Of a stretch of DNA of 21,125 nucleotides, positions 14,458 to 20,793 are shown piece by piece. Under the pieces are notes generated by a model, which was not told the DNA's origin, made no database searches, and saw nothing but the letters and a program-made list of their open reading frames with translations. Origin of the DNA: a virus; the IMG/VR virus record IMGVR_UViG_3300044971_001465, positions 1 through 21,125 of that record; one strand, written 5' to 3'. A program made the position numbers and the translations under genes. How positions within the stretch are numbered: the first letter of the stretch is position 1; every line of letters begins with the position of its first letter.

Positions 14458-14484
14458 GGATAAATAGGGCAAATCGGACATTGG

Positions 14485-14513
14485 GGCGCCCCGTTCGGGC
14501 GTGTCGTCCACAG
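14485..14513 (+). repeat. 29-bp repeat, copy 1 (hairpin plus DnaA-like box)
   Basis: Identical over 29 bp to 16724-16752. It contains the hairpin CGCCC-CGTTC-GGGCG (14487-14501) and then TGTCGTCCACAG. A shorter relative is at 15200-15222. Confidence 0.85.
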
Positions 14514-14524
14514 GGTTATGCACA
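14504..14524 (+). promoter_or_regulatory. Paired DnaA-box-like sites
   Basis: TCGTCCACA (14504-14512) and TTATGCACA (14516-14524), 12 bp apart in the same direction; each is close to the DnaA boxes TTGTCCACA and TTATNCACA. The pair recurs at 16743-16763. Confidence 0.5.
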
Positions 14525-14532
14525 GGTAAAAA

Positions 14533-16678: not shown

Positions 16679-16689
16679 ATAAATAAATT

Positions 16690-16713
16690 CCTGAGCAAGA
16701 ATAAAAACTGCTC
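16690..16713 (+). repeat. 3'-end element copy 1
   Basis: CCTGAGCA, 11 bases, TGCTC; GAGCA pairs with TGCTC. It lies 12 bp after the stop at 16678. Three related copies follow later. Confidence 0.6.
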
Positions 16714-16723
16714 CCAAAATTTT

Positions 16724-16752
16724 GGCGCCCCGTTCGGGCGTGTCGTCCACAG
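16724..16752 (+). repeat. 29-bp repeat, copy 2 (hairpin plus DnaA-like box)
   Basis: Identical to 14485-14513. Here the adjoining DnaA box is the exact TTATCCACA. Confidence 0.85.
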
Positions 16753-16763
16753 AGTTATCCACA
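16743..16763 (+). promoter_or_regulatory. Paired DnaA-box-like sites
   Basis: TCGTCCACA (16743-16751) and the exact consensus TTATCCACA (16755-16763), same spacing and direction as at 14504-14524. Confidence 0.6.
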
Positions 16764-16770
16764 ATTAAGA

Positions 16771-16786
16771 TGTGATTAAAAACACA
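16771..16786. promoter_or_regulatory. Crp/GlxR-like site 7
   Basis: TGTGATTAAAAACACA: 9 of 10 matches. Centred about -82.5 from the 16825-16854 promoter. Confidence 0.5.
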
Positions 16787-16824
16787 CCCAGATTACCCCA
16801 GAATTGCCATGTCTAATTGGAAAA

Positions 16825-16854
16825 TGTCAGTTTAATCTGATAGGGTTGTATTAT
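16825..16854 (+). promoter_or_regulatory. Promoter of the 16877-18006 operon
   Basis: AAAATGTCAG (TGTCAG at 16825-16830), an 18-bp spacer and TATTAT (16849-16854). Same class as 14589 and 15748. Confidence 0.65.
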
Positions 16855-16876
16855 TAACAACACGAAAGGAAAACTA

Positions 16877-16999
16877 ATGAAAGATTACTTTGATGAGTTT
16901 TATGATGACTACTACTCTAAGGAAATGCCACTAAGCGGAGATGCTTGCTACTGCAAGACTATGATGCTATGCTCAGTTTGTGCGAAGGGATATAACTAA
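16877..16999 (+). CDS. Small acidic Cys-cluster protein, 40 aa
   Basis: An acidic, Tyr-rich start (MKDYFDEFYDDYYSKEM) is followed by ACYCKTMMLCSVCAKG, four Cys as CxC and CxxC that could bind zinc. GAAAGGA is upstream. The stop overlaps the next start (TAATG). Unknown function. Confidence 0.7.
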   Translation: MKDYFDEFYDDYYSKEMPLSGDACYCKTMMLCSVCAKGYN

Positions 17000-17184
17000 T
17001 GGGAAAGTTTAAGGATACCCTAATGGGAATACTTGCTCATGATGCGTGTTATGGAGCAGGTTGGCAATTTACAGGAAATGCTATAGACTATGATGTATGG
17101 GCTTGTGAGTGTAATCCTTACAACATACCTGCTGATGAAATACAGGAATACCACCAATTATTCAAAACTAAGGAGAACGCATAA
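16999..17184 (+). CDS. Small protein, 61 aa, paralogue of the 15986 gene
   Basis: LAHDACYGAGWQFTGNAIDY and DVWACECN align with CDECNGQGLIFWGNDLDYNV and EKCECN of the 15986 protein. The first metal ligand is His instead of Cys (HxxCxGxG). A helical acidic tail follows. Coupled by one-base overlaps on both sides. Confidence 0.7.
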   Translation: MGKFKDTLMGILAHDACYGAGWQFTGNAIDYDVWACECNPYNIPADEIQEYHQLFKTKENA

Positions 17185-17399
17185 TGGAATACCTATACTC
17201 AGTAACTTGCACCTATGATGGTGATAAGTCCCCTCATTGGATTGGACGCTACGATAATGCACTTGACGCAGTAAGTGAGTTTAATAAGTTTGTGGACTAT
17301 GGATTGGCTAGCGAATACTCAACAGTTAATCTATCAGAGCCTAATGGCAAAATGCACACTAAGGTATTTTATGCTAACGGAACAGTAGGAGGTAAGTAA
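17184..17399 (+). CDS. Conserved small actinophage protein, 71 aa
   Basis: YSVTCTYDGDKSPHWIGRYD, then AVSEFNKFVDYGLASEYSTV and NLSEPNGKMHTKVFY. I recognise the motif run PHWIGRYD...F-x-D-x-G-x-A-S-x-Y-S-T-V-N-L-x-x-P-N-G-K-M from many actinophages, all without function. One-base overlap with the preceding gene. Confidence 0.8.
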   Translation: MEYLYSVTCTYDGDKSPHWIGRYDNALDAVSEFNKFVDYGLASEYSTVNLSEPNGKMHTKVFYANGTVGGK

Positions 17400-17696
17400 A
17401 TGGGAAGCGTAACTGCACTAGGAATTAAAGATTCCGTATTAGACTTAGAAACTCAGATTCTTTATCACTTGCGTGGTAATCACTATCCACCAGTACCCGC
17501 AGAAATGGTTGCACCTTGCATTGAGGCTATTGACGCTTTCTATGATGAGGACTATGGTCGTATGATTGAAATGCCTATGGTAGGAGATTTTCAGATTCTC
17601 TATAAAGGTATGACTCACGCACCTGCTCGTGCTATTGTTGAGCAACACCACTTGGATACTTTTATTGACCCAGTAGGTGAGGATTTTTATGAGTAA
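17400..17696 (+). CDS. Conserved small actinophage protein, 98 aa
   Basis: ILYHLRGNHYPPVPAEMVAP, CIEAIDAFYDEDYGRMIEMP and then PARAIVEQHHLDTFID. The blocks H-L-x-x-N-H-Y-P-P-V-P and A-x-A-I-V-E-Q-H-H-L-x-x-F-I are widely shared among actinophages. The histidine pair in EQHHL could bind metal, but this is a guess. Starts immediately after the preceding stop. Confidence 0.8.
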   Translation: MGSVTALGIKDSVLDLETQILYHLRGNHYPPVPAEMVAPCIEAIDAFYDEDYGRMIEMPMVGDFQILYKGMTHAPARAIVEQHHLDTFIDPVGEDFYE

Positions 17697-17781
17697 AACA
17701 CTTCAAGAGTTATTAGATGAAGCAACACCTGCTTTAGAAACCGTGCTATGGCAAATACTAGATGAGATTGAGGATAAATAA
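17689..17781 (+). CDS. Tiny acidic helical protein, 30 aa
   Basis: It begins MSKTLQELLDEATPALETVL and ends in EIEDK. It overlaps the previous gene by 8 bp and its stop abuts the next ATG, so it is part of the coupled operon. The function is unknown. Confidence 0.6.
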   Translation: MSKTLQELLDEATPALETVLWQILDEIEDK

Positions 17782-18006
17782 ATGGCTGCTACAATAATGA
17801 ACATGGAATATGTTAAGGTAGATGTTTTAACTTCAGGTCAATTAGAAGTAGATGATCTAATTCAAGTTGGCGATGAAGTTGTATCTATTGTAGAAATTGT
17901 TTCGTTAGCCGATGGATACACTCTTGAAATCATAAATGATTTTGGTGAAAGAGAAGTTATTGAAGTTGGAGAATACCAGCAATTTGATTTAATGATGCTG
18001 CAATAA
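17782..18006 (+). CDS. Small acidic beta protein, 74 aa
   Basis: VDVLTSGQLEVDDLIQVGDE is followed by VVSIVEIVSLADGYTLEII and NDFGEREVIEV. The pattern (L-x-x-G-D-x-V/I and F-G-E) is seen in small actinophage proteins with an SH3-like fold. Last gene of the 16877 operon. Unknown function. Confidence 0.7.
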   Translation: MAATIMNMEYVKVDVLTSGQLEVDDLIQVGDEVVSIVEIVSLADGYTLEIINDFGEREVIEVGEYQQFDLMMLQ

Positions 18007-18010
18007 AAAG

Positions 18011-18025
18011 CAGGGCGGCCCCCTG
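18011..18025 (+). terminator. GC stem-loop at operon end
   Basis: CAGGG (18011-18015) and CCCTG (18021-18025) flank five bases, 4 bp after the stop at 18006. There is no T run, and the stem abuts Crp-like site 8. Terminator function is uncertain. Confidence 0.4.
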
Positions 18026-18039
18026 TGACCTTGCTCACA
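18024..18039. promoter_or_regulatory. Crp/GlxR-like site 8 (perfect)
   Basis: TGTGACCTTGCTCACA matches all ten positions; centred about -58.5 from the promoter at 18055-18083. Confidence 0.65.
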
Positions 18040-18054
18040 TTCAATTAAGAAGAC

Positions 18055-18083
18055 TTGATATTTTTCCTGATTTACGCTAGAAT
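18055..18083 (+). promoter_or_regulatory. Sigma70-type promoter, leaderless ATG
   Basis: TTGATA (18055-18060), 17-bp spacer, TAGAAT (18078-18083). The -10 box ends 6 bp before the ATG at 18090, predicting a start on the A of the ATG. Confidence 0.75.
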
Positions 18084-18089
18084 TATTGT

Positions 18090-18809
18090 ATGCCACTACT
18101 TAGAAGTAAAGATAGGAAAGTTACAAATGCCGTTAGCCCCAATGGAAAAACACCAACAATTGCAAACACCTTCGGTCTCCCTGCTGGAAAGTCTTATTCC
18201 TGCCCTGGAGCGACTAGCGTATGCGAGAGTGTTTGTTATGCTGGCAAACTGGAAAAAGTATTCCCAACAGTAAAAAAGAATTTATTACACAACTGGGAAT
18301 TACTTAAAGACGCAGATAGCGACACAATGGTTTCTCTACTATCAGAAATGATAGATGAGTTTATTGTTGATTGTGAAAAGCGCAATGCACAAAAGTTATT
18401 CCGTATCCACTGGGACGGAGATTTCTTTAATGATACTTATACCAATGCGTGGAAGACAGTTATCTTAAATAACCCTAGCATTCAATTCTGGGTATACACG
18501 AGAGTTAAGTCTGCTGCTCTCATCCTTAATGGTATAGATAATCTTTCTTTATACTATTCAACAGATAGTGAGAATGTAAAGATTGGCGTAGATCTAAAAA
18601 TTAACAATGGTATTCGCTTAGCATACCTTGCCAAAAATTTTGCGGTAGGTCAAGCAGACATGAAAACAATGATAGGTAAGGTAGGGGCTAAGTGTCCTGA
18701 GAATAAAAAGGCTATCCCACTTATTAGCAAAGAAGGCTCTGCTTGCGTTTCTTGCTCACTTTGTGTATACTCAAAAGCAGACATAGTATTCTCTAGTAGC
18801 AAGAAGTGA
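18090..18809 (+). CDS. GP88-like phage protein with two Cys clusters, 239 aa
   Basis: The N-terminal region has SYSCPGATSVCESVCYAGKL: Cys38, 45 and 49 followed by Tyr-Ala, the hallmark of mycobacteriophage gene product 88 and of DUF5131/gp37-like proteins. RIHWDGDFFNDTYTNAWKTV and IQFWVYTRV follow, then a C-terminal cluster with Cys202, 219, 222 and 225 (ACVSCSLCVY). These paired clusters suggest an Fe-S or zinc enzyme; a TIM-barrel-like, radical-SAM-like fold has been suggested by pattern but is not proven here. The start at 18090 is supported by a leaderless promoter. Confidence in family is moderate. Confidence 0.75.
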   Translation: MPLLRSKDRKVTNAVSPNGKTPTIANTFGLPAGKSYSCPGATSVCESVCYAGKLEKVFPTVKKNLLHNWELLKDADSDTMVSLLSEMIDEFIVDCEKRNAQKLFRIHWDGDFFNDTYTNAWKTVILNNPSIQFWVYTRVKSAALILNGIDNLSLYYSTDSENVKIGVDLKINNGIRLAYLAKNFAVGQADMKTMIGKVGAKCPENKKAIPLISKEGSACVSCSLCVYSKADIVFSSSKK

Positions 18810-18815
18810 GGAGTT

Positions 18816-18881
18816 ATGGAGTTAGTAGTATTAACTATCCTATTTATCATAATCCTATCAGCAGGGCTAGGTCATAAGTAA
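18816..18881 (+). CDS. Tiny membrane peptide, 21 aa
   Basis: MELVVLTILFIIILSAGLG is almost entirely one hydrophobic helix. GAGGAG is 5 bp upstream, so translation is likely. It follows GP88 by 6 bp and may be co-transcribed. The function is unknown; such peptides often act on a membrane partner. Confidence 0.5.
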   Translation: MELVVLTILFIIILSAGLGHK

Positions 18882-18906
18882 TGTCCGTTATGTCCGATTT
18901 ATCCCA

Positions 18907-18922
18907 TGTGATGTATCTCACA
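18907..18922. promoter_or_regulatory. Crp/GlxR-like site 9 (perfect)
   Basis: TGTGATGTATCTCACA, full match with central TA, centred about -92.5 from the promoter at 18973-19000. Confidence 0.65.
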
Positions 18923-18972
18923 CAAATAATAATCTCAAAATGTGAGAAATACTAGAAATCAACTTGTATTTC

Positions 18973-19000
18973 TTGTCCAAAAATGTTAGACTTGTAGTAT
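18973..19000 (+). promoter_or_regulatory. Promoter of the 19023 gene
   Basis: TTGTCC (18973-18978), 16-bp spacer, TAGTAT (18995-19000). An inverted repeat TCTCA-AAATG-TGAGA at 18933-18947 lies upstream, between the Crp-like site and the promoter. Confidence 0.55.
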
Positions 19001-19022
19001 CAACCAAACGAAAGGAAACACA

Positions 19023-19193
19023 ATGTCCGTATCAAACGCAACATACAAAGTAGGAGATACCTACACAAGCCAAAAGTCAAAGGCAACAGGAACTATCCAA
19101 GAAATTATCCCACAGGCTAATGGAAATGTTCGTGTTAAGTTAGATGTTAATGGCTCAACTCGCTGGACTACTTGGACAGCAAAGTCAGAGTAA
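19023..19193 (+). CDS. Small 'YKVGDTYTS' beta protein, 56 aa
   Basis: ATYKVGDTYTSQKSKATGTI, then VRVKLDVNGSTRWTTW. This is the clearest member of the small SH3-like family also at 15385 and 19798; similar sequences (V-G-D-x-x-T-x-x-K-S-G-x-T-G) are common in actinophages. GAAAGGA lies before the ATG. Single-gene unit with its own promoter. Confidence 0.75.
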   Translation: MSVSNATYKVGDTYTSQKSKATGTIQEIIPQANGNVRVKLDVNGSTRWTTWTAKSE

Positions 19194-19239
19194 TTTAGCA
19201 AACGCTAAAAAGTCCTGAGCATGACTACTAAAACTGCTC
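19194..19239 (+). repeat. 3'-end element copy 2, with hairpin
   Basis: TTTAGC-AAAC-GCTAAA (19194-19209), then CCTGAGCA (19214-19221), 13 bases, TGCTC (19235-19239). It begins just after the stop at 19193. Confidence 0.6.
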
Positions 19240-19282
19240 ACCATAACCCCCATCAAACCCACCTAAAGAAAAGAGAAAACAA

Positions 19283-19705
19283 ATGGCAAGAGGAAAAGCA
19301 ATTAGCGTAAAGATACCTACGCAAAAAGTAATCACAGCACTAGAAACAAGATTAGCCAAACTAGAGGCTGATTACACAAAGCAAGATGAAAACGAAGCAA
19401 AGTTCCAAAAGAAAGTAGATGCTTGGAAAAAAGAAATTGGGAAGTGGGCTATCGGTCAATTCTCAAAGGCTGAAAACCTACGCACCAACTATCGTTCTTG
19501 GAACAAAACTCTCAATGTTGATTTTGATTTAACAGTAAATGAGGGAGATTTCCCTGCTGAACCTGTAAAGGATTTTGAGCAAATCCATCAACACACTTAT
19601 CGTGAGCAAAAAGAGGAAATGGAAAATGCTATCCGTATCCTTAAAATGACGGAGGAGGAAGTAGTTAATACTTCTACCTACAACGCAGTAGCCCGTTATC
19701 TCTAA
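19283..19705 (+). CDS. Conserved coiled-coil protein, 140 aa
   Basis: The N-terminal half is a charged coiled coil (KVITALETRLAKLEADYTKQ and then EAKFQKKVDAWKKEIGKW). The end has a helical segment REQKEEMENAIRILKM and a Tyr-Leu-rich tail. Similar actinophage proteins are called hypothetical. AAAGAGAAAACAA lies just before the ATG. It may be a structural or DNA-associated adaptor; unknown. Confidence 0.75.
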   Translation: MARGKAISVKIPTQKVITALETRLAKLEADYTKQDENEAKFQKKVDAWKKEIGKWAIGQFSKAENLRTNYRSWNKTLNVDFDLTVNEGDFPAEPVKDFEQIHQHTYREQKEEMENAIRILKMTEEEVVNTSTYNAVARYL

Positions 19706-19717
19706 TTAGATAAAGAT

Positions 19718-19740
19718 GGGGGAGGGTATTTGACTCCCCC
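19718..19740 (+). terminator. GC-rich stem-loop overlapping next promoter
   Basis: GGGGGAG (19718-19724) and CTCCCCC (19734-19740) form a 7-bp stem with a 9-base loop, 12 bp after the stop at 19705. No T run follows, and the right arm overlaps the -35 and spacer of the next promoter. Confidence 0.55.
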
Positions 19741-19758
19741 GTCAAAATCTAGTAAAAT
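19730..19758 (+). promoter_or_regulatory. Promoter of the 19798 gene
   Basis: TTGACT (19730-19735), 17-bp spacer, TAAAAT (19753-19758). It is the only rightward cassette promoter without a Crp-like site. Confidence 0.65.
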
Positions 19759-19797
19759 TAAATAATACAAACCACCATAACAAGAAAAGGAAATAAA

Positions 19798-19968
19798 ATG
19801 ACTCTACACGGATACACATACCAACTAGGTGATTTATTCACCACAAGCAAAACAGGCATAACAGGTAGAATTGTAAAGTTCTCACCTATCAACTCAAAAC
19901 TAACTCGTATCTCTTTACAGTTAGCAAATGGGCAACGCCGTTTAGCAATGGTATCAACAACTAAATAA
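19798..19968 (+). CDS. Small 'YQLGDLFTTSK' beta protein, 56 aa
   Basis: YTYQLGDLFTTSKTGITGRI and ISLQLANGQRRLAMV place it with the 15385 and 19023 proteins. AAAAGGA lies 7 bp before the ATG. It is a single-gene unit between its own promoter and 3'-end element. Unknown role. Confidence 0.75.
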   Translation: MTLHGYTYQLGDLFTTSKTGITGRIVKFSPINSKLTRISLQLANGQRRLAMVSTTK

Positions 19969-20022
19969 TTTTCATCTCTGCGCTCCACGCTACTTGTAGC
20001 AAGTGTTCCCTGAGATGATCAT

Positions 20023-20046
20023 CCTGAGTATGATGTTAAACTGCTC
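20023..20046 (+). repeat. 3'-end element copy 3
   Basis: CCTGAGTA, 11 bases, TGCTC. GAGTA still pairs with TGCTC through a G-U pair. Palindromes such as GATGATCATC lie just upstream. Confidence 0.55.
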
Positions 20047-20057
20047 TATTTTTAATT

Positions 20058-20084
20058 GCCCCGCAAAAACGGGGCGCCTTTTGT
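20058..20084 (+). terminator. Rho-independent terminator after the 19798 gene
   Basis: GCCCCG (20058-20063) and CGGGGC (20070-20075) flank six bases and are followed by GCCTTTT. It abuts Crp-like site 10. Confidence 0.75.
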
Positions 20085-20097
20085 GATGTAAATCACA
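20082..20097. promoter_or_regulatory. Crp/GlxR-like site 10 (perfect)
   Basis: TGTGATGTAAATCACA, full match with central TA; centred about -75.5 from the 20130-20158 promoter. Confidence 0.65.
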
Positions 20098-20129
20098 TCT
20101 CACTATATGAGACTAATTAAGAAATAGAT

Positions 20130-20158
20130 TTGCATTTCCTGAATCATCCTGATATTAT
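20130..20158 (+). promoter_or_regulatory. Promoter of the 20195 gene
   Basis: TTGCAT (20130-20135), 17-bp spacer, TATTAT (20153-20158). Confidence 0.65.
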
Positions 20159-20194
20159 TATATTAATAACAAAACAACAGGAAGAGGCCCCACA

Positions 20195-20674
20195 ATGTCA
20201 ACCAACATTAATGACGCAGTAACAATTGATAAGGTAACAGTACCTTACAATCCACATCTACTAGTAACATATAAAGCAGTCGCAGGAACATATGCTGCTC
20301 CTGAAGAGGCAACATATTTAACATCCAAGGTGACTGACCTTGAATGGGACCTACACAATGCACGGTCTCGTGAAGAAGCGCTACGTAATCTGCAGGGCAC
20401 AATCAGTACTCTTGAAGACCAAATTGTAGAATGGTTTGACCCTAACTATTCTAAAGAAGAAGTTCTTGTAGCAATCTGTGAGCACTTTGGTATTAATCCA
20501 GTTAAGGAAATTGAAGTAGAAGGTACCATATCATTCAGCGGAACAATCAGTGTTCCAATGTCAGACCTTGCAGACTTTGATTTAAGCAATGTAACTATTG
20601 ACGCTGATTTAAATTCATATGACTACGACGCAGACCTGCGTGTAGACGAAGTGTCATTAGAAGAGCAATACTAA
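20195..20674 (+). CDS. Conserved actinophage protein, 159 aa
   Basis: The region TYLTSKVTDLEWDLHNARSR is a likely coiled coil. Then come ISTLEDQIVEWF and EEVLVAICEHFGINPVKEIE, then beta strands with EGTISFSGTISVP. The 'CEHF-I...K-E-V/I-E-V-x-G-T-I-S-F-S-G' layout occurs in actinophage early genes with no known function. GGAAGAGG precedes the ATG. The acidic tail is rich in Asp. Confidence 0.8.
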   Translation: MSTNINDAVTIDKVTVPYNPHLLVTYKAVAGTYAAPEEATYLTSKVTDLEWDLHNARSREEALRNLQGTISTLEDQIVEWFDPNYSKEEVLVAICEHFGINPVKEIEVEGTISFSGTISVPMSDLADFDLSNVTIDADLNSYDYDADLRVDEVSLEEQY

Positions 20675-20675
20675 A

Positions 20676-20716
20676 TTTGATAGGGGGCTATCAAAACTGG
20701 CTACGGTACAGCCAGT
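20676..20716 (+). other. Tandem hairpins after the 20195 gene
   Basis: TTTGATAG-GGGG-CTATCAAA (8-bp stem, 20676-20695) is followed with no gap by ACTGGCT-ACGGTAC-AGCCAGT (7-bp stem, 20696-20716). They precede 3'-end element copy 4. Confidence 0.7.
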
Positions 20717-20737
20717 ATAAATAAGTGGCCAAAGGGA

Positions 20738-20764
20738 CCTGAGCATTGTCCACGTAAACGGCTC
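20738..20764 (+). repeat. 3'-end element copy 4
   Basis: CCTGAGCA (20738-20745), then GCTC (20761-20764) preceded by TAAACG and followed by ACTTTTTT. GAGC pairs with GCTC. The T run suggests termination. Confidence 0.6.
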
Positions 20765-20793
20765 ACTTTTTTCTGCAAGAAAATCCCGCCCCC

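Follow-up and report, generated by a model that had tools for sequence, protein, structure and literature searches.

We analyzed a short repeated element that follows four small genes, all different, in a 21,125-nucleotide (nt) stretch of viral DNA (IMG/VR record IMGVR_UViG_3300044971_001465, positions 1 to 21,125; the window in the following). On the evidence of its sequence, each copy is an H-type RNA pseudoknot of ~27-31 nt in which both crossing helices are backed by covariation, and this pseudoknot probably serves as a 3'-terminal barrier of the mRNA to 3'-to-5' exonucleases, however the 3' end itself arises. The original prediction had described a stem, GAGCA/TGCTC, at 16690-16713, 19214-19239, 20023-20046 and 20738-20764. 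The four copies lie exactly there on the + strand, far above chance, and the stem is real; it is, however, only half of the structure, and the simple hairpin is wrong because a second helix converts it into the pseudoknot. The complete elements, located by sequence and descriptor scan, are:

16687..16713, + strand: pseudoknot, copy 1
19211..19240, + strand: pseudoknot, copy 2
20020..20046, + strand: pseudoknot, copy 3
20735..20765, + strand: pseudoknot variant, copy 4

Two matches to the strict pattern CCTGAGCA-N8..20-TGCTC were found in the window, against 0 expected from 100 dinucleotide shuffles. A pattern covering all four copies gave 4 forward matches, 0 reverse matches and 0 matches with a reversed-pattern control. 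A relaxed two-helix descriptor run over both strands of the window left these four sites alone as convincing.

The consensus of the element is 5'-NNN CC UNNNYA WG N'N'N' nn AAAC URN'N'N'A-3'. It consists of a first helix (S1) of 3 base pairs (bp), a first loop (L1) of CC, a second helix (S2) of 5-6 bp, most commonly UGAGYA/UGCUCA, a second loop (L2) that is usually AG, UG or CG, and a third loop (L3) that is usually nnAAAC. S1 is formed by a triplet of free sequence just 5' of CC and a triplet 2-3 nt past TGAGYA, that is, inside the loop of S2. By topology, CC would cross S2 and the nnAAAC strand would cross S1. In copy 1, S1 joins 16687-16689 (ATT) to 16700-16702 (AAT), L1 is 16690-16691, S2 joins 16692-16697 (TGAGCA) to 16709-16713 (TGCTC) with the outermost pair unformed, and L3 is 16703-16708 (AAAAAC). 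Copy 2 has S1 at 19211-19213 (AGT) and 19224-19226 (ACT), L1 at 19214-19215, S2 at 19216-19221 (TGAGCA) and 19235-19240 (TGCTCA), and L3 at 19227-19234. The corresponding parts of copy 3 are 20020-20022 (CAT) with 20033-20035 (ATG), CC at 20023-20024, 20025-20030 (TGAGTA) with 20042-20046 (TGCTC), including one U-G pair and an unformed outermost pair, and L3 at 20036-20041. Copy 4, the variant, pairs 20735-20737 (GGA) with 20749-20751 (TCC) and 20740-20745 (TGAGCA) with 20760-20765 (GGCTCA); its L1 is 20738-20739, its L2 has 3 nt and its L3 is 20752-20759. The U-G pair of copy 3 had been predicted, as had the retention of GAGC/GCTC in copy 4, whose inner end has A.G in place of the A-U of the other copies, and the retention of AAAC, which is found in 4/4 copies.

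The S1 helix is supported by sequence variation. Its pairing played no part in selecting the matches of the first scan; nevertheless, 93/142 distinct viral and window matches have at least 3 Watson-Crick pairs in S1 compared with ~6 after random re-mating, bearing in mind that the phage sequences are related and such counts are not independent events. This enrichment is confined to one register, and neighbouring registers are not comparable. Each of the three S1 pairs shows two-sided changes among 78 sequences (118 cells of this kind vs 43 in shuffles), and the helix covaries through all four Watson-Crick pairs. Pairing over the whole structure was 92.5% in these 78 sequences, but 25-40% when the 3' partners were slid. 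A plain hairpin is ruled out by this strong covariation together with its weak energies: folded in that way the four window copies reach only -3.1 to -5.8 kcal/mol, and 2/4 are no more stable than shuffled sequence.

The second helix seemed invariant because the search pattern had fixed it. A sequence-free scan recovered the forms TGGGCA/TGCCCA, TGGACA/TGTCCA, TAGACA/TGTCTA, TAGGCA/TGCCTA, TGGGCG/CGCCCG and TAAGTA/TGCTTA, while permuted loop endings gave 0-1 matches. In collection-wide scans the compensated helices GGGC/GCCC, AGAC/GTCT and GACC/GGTC occurred in at least 120, in 100 and in 25 stretches, respectively, and the single-mismatch control GAGC/GCCC in 11 stretches only; 2-3 S1 pairs were present in 110/115, 80/81 and 15/19 members of the compensated sets. 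A second alignment, whose members were chosen by hand and mostly for paired S1, serves only as an illustration. The expectation of a conserved RNA element with compensatory changes at gene 3' ends is therefore supported; the absence of further copies and of covariation had been named as evidence against it, but further copies and covariation were both found.

The element has a defined position relative to genes. Using mechanical open reading frame (ORF) calls from a simple caller (same-strand ORFs of at least 40 amino acids, aa), 43% of the copies lie no more than 30 nt past a stop codon on the same strand; random positions give 7% and the opposite strand 10%. The gap between the stop codon and S1 in the first set is 5 nt in 22 cases, 6 nt in 18, 7 nt in 11, 8 nt in 10 and 9 nt in 13; an independent second set repeats the peak with 21 cases at 5 nt. 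Hardly any gap is shorter than 5 nt, and this hard lower edge appears in both sets. In a terminating ribosome, the mRNA enters ~5 nt behind the stop codon. For this reason the pseudoknot seems to be placed as near to the stop as is possible without the ribosome opening the fold. In the window, S1 begins 8 nt past the stop codon 16676-16678 in copy 1, 17 nt past 19191-19193 in copy 2, 51 nt past 19966-19968 in copy 3 and 60 nt past 20672-20674 in copy 4. The space ahead of copy 2 holds the hairpin TTTAGC-AAAC-GCTAAA (19194-19209); the extra hairpins that had been noticed ahead of copies 2 and 4 are both present.

The gap of 5-9 nt, which has a sharp lower edge, is also the usual spacing of recoding pseudoknots, and it could mean that the fold at the ribosome entry alters termination, read-through or re-initiation. 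We consider such a translational role very unlikely. The internal UGA would be in frame with the stop at a gap of 7 nt, but cases with this gap are not depleted (11 and 9), which argues against recoding. Three window copies stand at gaps of 17-60 nt, the upstream proteins are unrelated, and a fold that only needs to clear the ribosome would be expected at this spacing too. Programmed read-through or frameshifting, for which an open frame should continue past the stop, is disfavoured by the frame counts. A gene-specific regulator was ruled out as well, since the upstream proteins share no family; they have no common function and include DUF932, minor head proteins, ribonucleotide reductase, Hsp20, ArdA and HipA.

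A gene start with a Shine-Dalgarno sequence follows within 45 nt of ~22% of the copies, so that many of them are intercistronic; in several Firmicute phages the pseudoknot separates a minor head or portal gene from the scaffold gene. These downstream starts, together with a topology class and an A-rich third loop as in preQ1-I, would suit a small riboswitch aptamer of the preQ1 kind that acts on the downstream gene. This explanation is hardly probable at all, because the fixed distance is that to the upstream stop codon and not that to the downstream start, and because tRNAs and ribozymes are also found downstream. Rfam 15 gave no preQ1 match in the window or in the window region; the sole riboswitch match in that region, SAM_alpha, is below the cut-off (E = 0.16) and covers mostly upstream sequence.

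What follows the pseudoknot is in many cases a device that could make an RNA 3' end. TTTT occurs within 12 nt in 67/243 and 63/202 copies (~30%; background 13.6 and 12.6). tRNAs of many isotypes start 3-13 nt downstream in 14 cases of the first set, where 1.5 are expected within 150 nt, and in 12 cases of the second. At eight loci (L005, L009, L136, L192, L218, L224, L295 and L530) a hammerhead ribozyme follows with its presumed cleavage site 5-13 nt downstream; these ribozymes are of type III by layout, as read by eye from the sequence, and their cut sites are likewise deduced. DUF2800 RNA (RF02960) or GP20-b RNA (RF03003) matches lie 3' of the pseudoknot in L154 and L175, where DUF2800 RNA starts ~1-2 nt behind it, and in L202 (~16 nt); the 5' end of DUF2800 RNA might be a processing or self-cleavage site. 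In a reverse search from this RNA, which yielded six other matches (five over the cut-off), a degenerate GAGCA...GCTC stood directly upstream in L283 and L287 only; none was directly upstream in L284, L285, L286 and L288. Sequence resembling DUF2800 RNA but below the Rfam cut-off was also seen in L178 and L208.

The pseudoknot could accordingly be described as a general module for phage mRNA 3' ends that would fold just past the terminating ribosome. The 3' end would be made close behind it by termination at a U-tract, by a hammerhead, by RNase P acting on a tRNA downstream, or, within an operon, by endonuclease cutting and trimming. Few unpaired nucleotides would then remain behind the pseudoknot, 3'-to-5' exonucleases would be blocked, and the upstream mRNA would last longer. 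The element lies between the stop codon and the 3' end or processing site, as placed from the sequence, which is the location of a 3' protective element. From this we infer that RNA 3' ends lie behind the pseudoknot in vivo and that exonuclease blocking is its selected function. Structures at 3' ends have been proposed to block 3'-to-5' exonucleases in malE-malF, puf and cellulosome intergenic loops (PMC5927463, PMC4423207), and for prophage hammerheads a role in cutting long transcripts down to mRNAs of operon or gene length has been proposed (PMC3088659). The suggestion in the original prediction of a role in RNA stability, processing or termination fits this context of U-tracts, tRNAs and ribozyme cut sites just 3' of the element.

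Equivalent positions can be filled by other structures. Relatives of the DUF932 gene have the pseudoknot in 16/19 cases, many of these followed by tRNA-Asp; in L097 the same slot before a tRNA holds GGGCCCC-GAAA-GGGGCCC instead, and L046 has a similar hairpin with a GAAA loop. A 140-aa gene is followed by the pseudoknot in 15/18 relatives, and in the window and in L020 this place is taken by a strong hairpin that lacks a U-tract:

19715..19743, + strand: strong hairpin without U-tract, GATGGGGGAG...CTCCCCCGTC, -19 kcal/mol, after the 140-aa gene 19283-19705

A reverse search from hammerheads with one stem II pattern found no pseudoknot at 20 viral loci. At most of these loci (L248-L267) a tRNA-like 3' end or a stable hairpin such as GGGGGGCTTCGGCCCCCC precedes the cut site. 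Because hairpins and tRNA-like ends fill equivalent slots, the conserved feature is a stable structure just before the 3' end, of which the pseudoknot is one standard supply.

The main rival explanation is that the element is chiefly a transcription terminator, in which the pseudoknot replaces the terminator hairpin and RNA polymerase stops at the next U-tract. The T-rich tract directly behind ~30% of the copies is well over background, and in window copy 4 a CTTTTTT (a T6 run) adjoins the 3' side. Also, Staphylococcus phages 80alpha and phi11 have an ordinary terminator hairpin before the scaffold gene, where phiETA has the pseudoknot plus a U-tract. This explanation fits the subset with a U-tract but not the remainder. 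About two thirds of the copies lack the tract, others precede tRNAs and hammerheads, hairpins without U-tract fill orthologous slots, and window copy 3 has a terminator of its own:

20057..20076, + strand: intrinsic terminator hairpin TGCCCCGCAAAAACGGGGCG, then CCTTTTG, 10 nt behind copy 3

An intrinsic terminator should have a GC-rich hairpin and a U-tract in most members, and neither the TTTT counts nor the energies of -3 to -6 kcal/mol agree with this. We therefore regard a role chiefly in termination as rather unlikely; the original prediction that the element is not a standard terminator holds for most cases.

Several positions are more conserved than pairing needs: CC, the U and A closing S2, the L2 G and AAAC hardly vary, partly since they were searched for, and exact-pattern searches exaggerate the conservation of the pattern parts. 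Together with the strict size and spacing this could point to a recognition site for a factor, either a ribonuclease that cuts just behind it or a host or phage RNA-binding protein. We judge this unlikely. The hosts belong to many phyla with different ribonuclease sets, and the factor would have to be nearly universal; the interchange with plain hairpins favours a mechanical role, and groove contacts within the pseudoknot could also explain the invariant bases.

Exonuclease protection, which we prefer, has points against it too. About one third of the copies have a U-tract and may be terminators. S2 is weak as a plain hairpin, and strong blocking would need a putative tertiary stability. A protein might recognize the invariant CC and AAAC. 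Finally, at chromosomal copies that overlap a micro-gene (see below) the stop codon is inside the pseudoknot, and a terminating ribosome would open the fold there.

The pseudoknot is common in contigs of IMG/VR and GTDB; the matches listed are a lower bound on its number. Among the matches listed, 111/119 from bacterial contigs keep 2-3 S1 pairs. The labels of these contigs include Lactobacillus, Clostridia, Saccharibacteria, Aminicenantes, Bacteroidetes, cyanobacteria, Chloroflexi, Actinobacteria and Proteobacteria, and some may be prophages. Annotated phages with a copy include Staphylococcus phiETA and 80, Lactobacillus Lj771, Bacillus poppyseed (Page group), Anoxybacillus A403, crAss-like cr7_1, Mycobacterium Labelle, Arthrobacter Molivia, Corynebacterium phi673, Moorella MTATph1, Nostoc NMeng1, Synechococcus S-H35, Paracoccus ParMal1 and the single-stranded DNA microvirus UA08Rod_4626. 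The assumption that the element is specific to one phage group did not hold, since tailed phages of many hosts, a microvirus and bacterial contigs from many phyla all carry it. E. coli genomes had no clear copy (the canonical query had no match and the GGGC query one weak plasmid match inside a gene), and no clear copy was found before the scaffold gene of 80alpha, phi11, TP901-1, O1205 and A118, where terminators or other structures are located. The hosts of phages that carry the fold range from cyanobacteria and actinobacteria to Firmicutes and proteobacteria, but Rfam 15 lacks it: the window had no match at gathering score and the window region none of relevance at E up to 5, and 7 loci of annotated phages and plasmids had no relevant match at permissive thresholds. 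A mir-154 match at 17130-17207 (- strand) was dismissed as it is below the cut-off and inside genes. No description of the pseudoknot was found in the open-access literature searched, so that an earlier description elsewhere is possible.

The closest known systems are the 3' protective stem-loops of malE-malF, puf and the cellulosome (PMC5927463, PMC4423207), which also stand behind a gene, often without U-tract, and between differently expressed genes. They are plain hairpins without fixed sequence, whereas the present element is a 28-nt pseudoknot of conserved sequence at a fixed distance from the stop in many hosts. It shares with intrinsic terminators the 3' position and, in ~30% of copies, the U-tract, but has a weak stem of 5-6 bp and a loop of 11-13 nt in a pseudoknot, mostly without U-tract. 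Frameshifting pseudoknots of the luteovirus type are similar in length (~28 nt), in the two-nucleotide first loop and in the A-rich third loop; here, S1 has 3 bp and S2 5-6 bp, and the fold comes after stop codons with no recoding signature. Viral exonuclease-resistant RNAs (xrRNAs) are compact pseudoknots too, and the present element is likewise proposed to stop an exonuclease; xrRNAs stop 5'-to-3' enzymes in eukaryotic RNA viruses, whereas the present element would stop 3'-to-5' enzymes in DNA phages, and no homology is claimed. The Mu-gpT-DE downstream-element RNA, a motif name in Rfam, is also a phage RNA motif downstream of a gene; it is named for a single phage gene, and the pseudoknot has no Rfam match. 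DUF2800 RNA (RF02960) and GP20-b RNA (RF03003) are separate motifs, the Rfam models of which start behind the pseudoknot.

More tentatively, the pseudoknot may be a sequence-conserved 'end cap' for mRNAs in bacterial viruses (tailed phages and a microvirus) and of some bacterial genes, a standard part that would combine with any 3'-end device (U-tract, RNase P at a tRNA, hammerhead, perhaps DUF2800 RNA) and that its fixed distance from the stop codon would couple to the terminating ribosome. If true, the end cap would be the first common 3'-side exonuclease-resistant RNA of bacteria. The element would suggest one shared answer to host exonucleases and tie phage hammerhead ribozymes and tRNAs to the formation of mRNA 3' ends. 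It could also be read as a marker of likely mRNA 3' ends in unannotated viral genomes, and as a short portable part it is a candidate mRNA stabiliser.

Orthologous sites were found for several window copies. Relatives L024 and L006 bear the pseudoknot at the gene end matching copy 1, and L074, L006, L087 and L043 at the gene ends orthologous to that of copy 2. The variant form of copy 4 recurs in L028 and L091, and the ortholog in L007 has CCTGAGCATGATTTAAAAAGGCTC. Close pairs of pseudoknots are rare (L171, L026 and L054). A repeat of a type III toxin-antitoxin system (ToxI-like) was rejected because the copies are mostly single behind unrelated genes; no search was aimed at toxin genes.

On bacterial contigs (Aminicenantes, Deltaproteobacteria, KSB1, Actinomycetes) we observed a conserved micro-gene with a Shine-Dalgarno sequence and an ORF of ~20 codons, the product of which is MKRFxxPRxAHCxEGCxxxS or similar. 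Its stop is usually the UGA inside the pseudoknot, an intrinsic terminator often follows, and the neighbouring genes are unrelated (L126, L127, L130, L135, L140, L142, L149, L153, L166, L167, L180, L182, L185, L190, L195, L227 and L237, and also L161, L165 and L239). Read-through of this UGA is unsupported, as the downstream frames stop at differing places. On the - strand of L136, a Polynucleobacter metagenome-assembled genome, two tandem units of pseudoknot plus hammerhead flank an ORF of ~50 codons, a layout that looks as if it were to excise a single-gene mRNA with a protected 3' end.

At gene 3' ends of L108, L043, L070 and L045 we noted another conserved element, ~60 nt long (GAAACAGGGGCAGTTTAGGAGAGTATCTAGCCCAATGTCGTAAGTAAGAACTCTCC and variants). 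The window also contains a 50-bp repeat, 88% identical, at 14480-14529 and 16719-16768 with DnaA-box-like sequences (TTATCCACA / TTATGCACA). Its second copy sits just behind pseudoknot copy 1, and the pseudoknots of L006 and L024 precede similar sequence. CRP-like palindromes (TGTGATnTAnATCACA) occur in several intergenic regions of the window (~14290, 14441, 18906, 20082 and 20795), among others behind pseudoknot copies 3 and 4, near promoter-like sequences.

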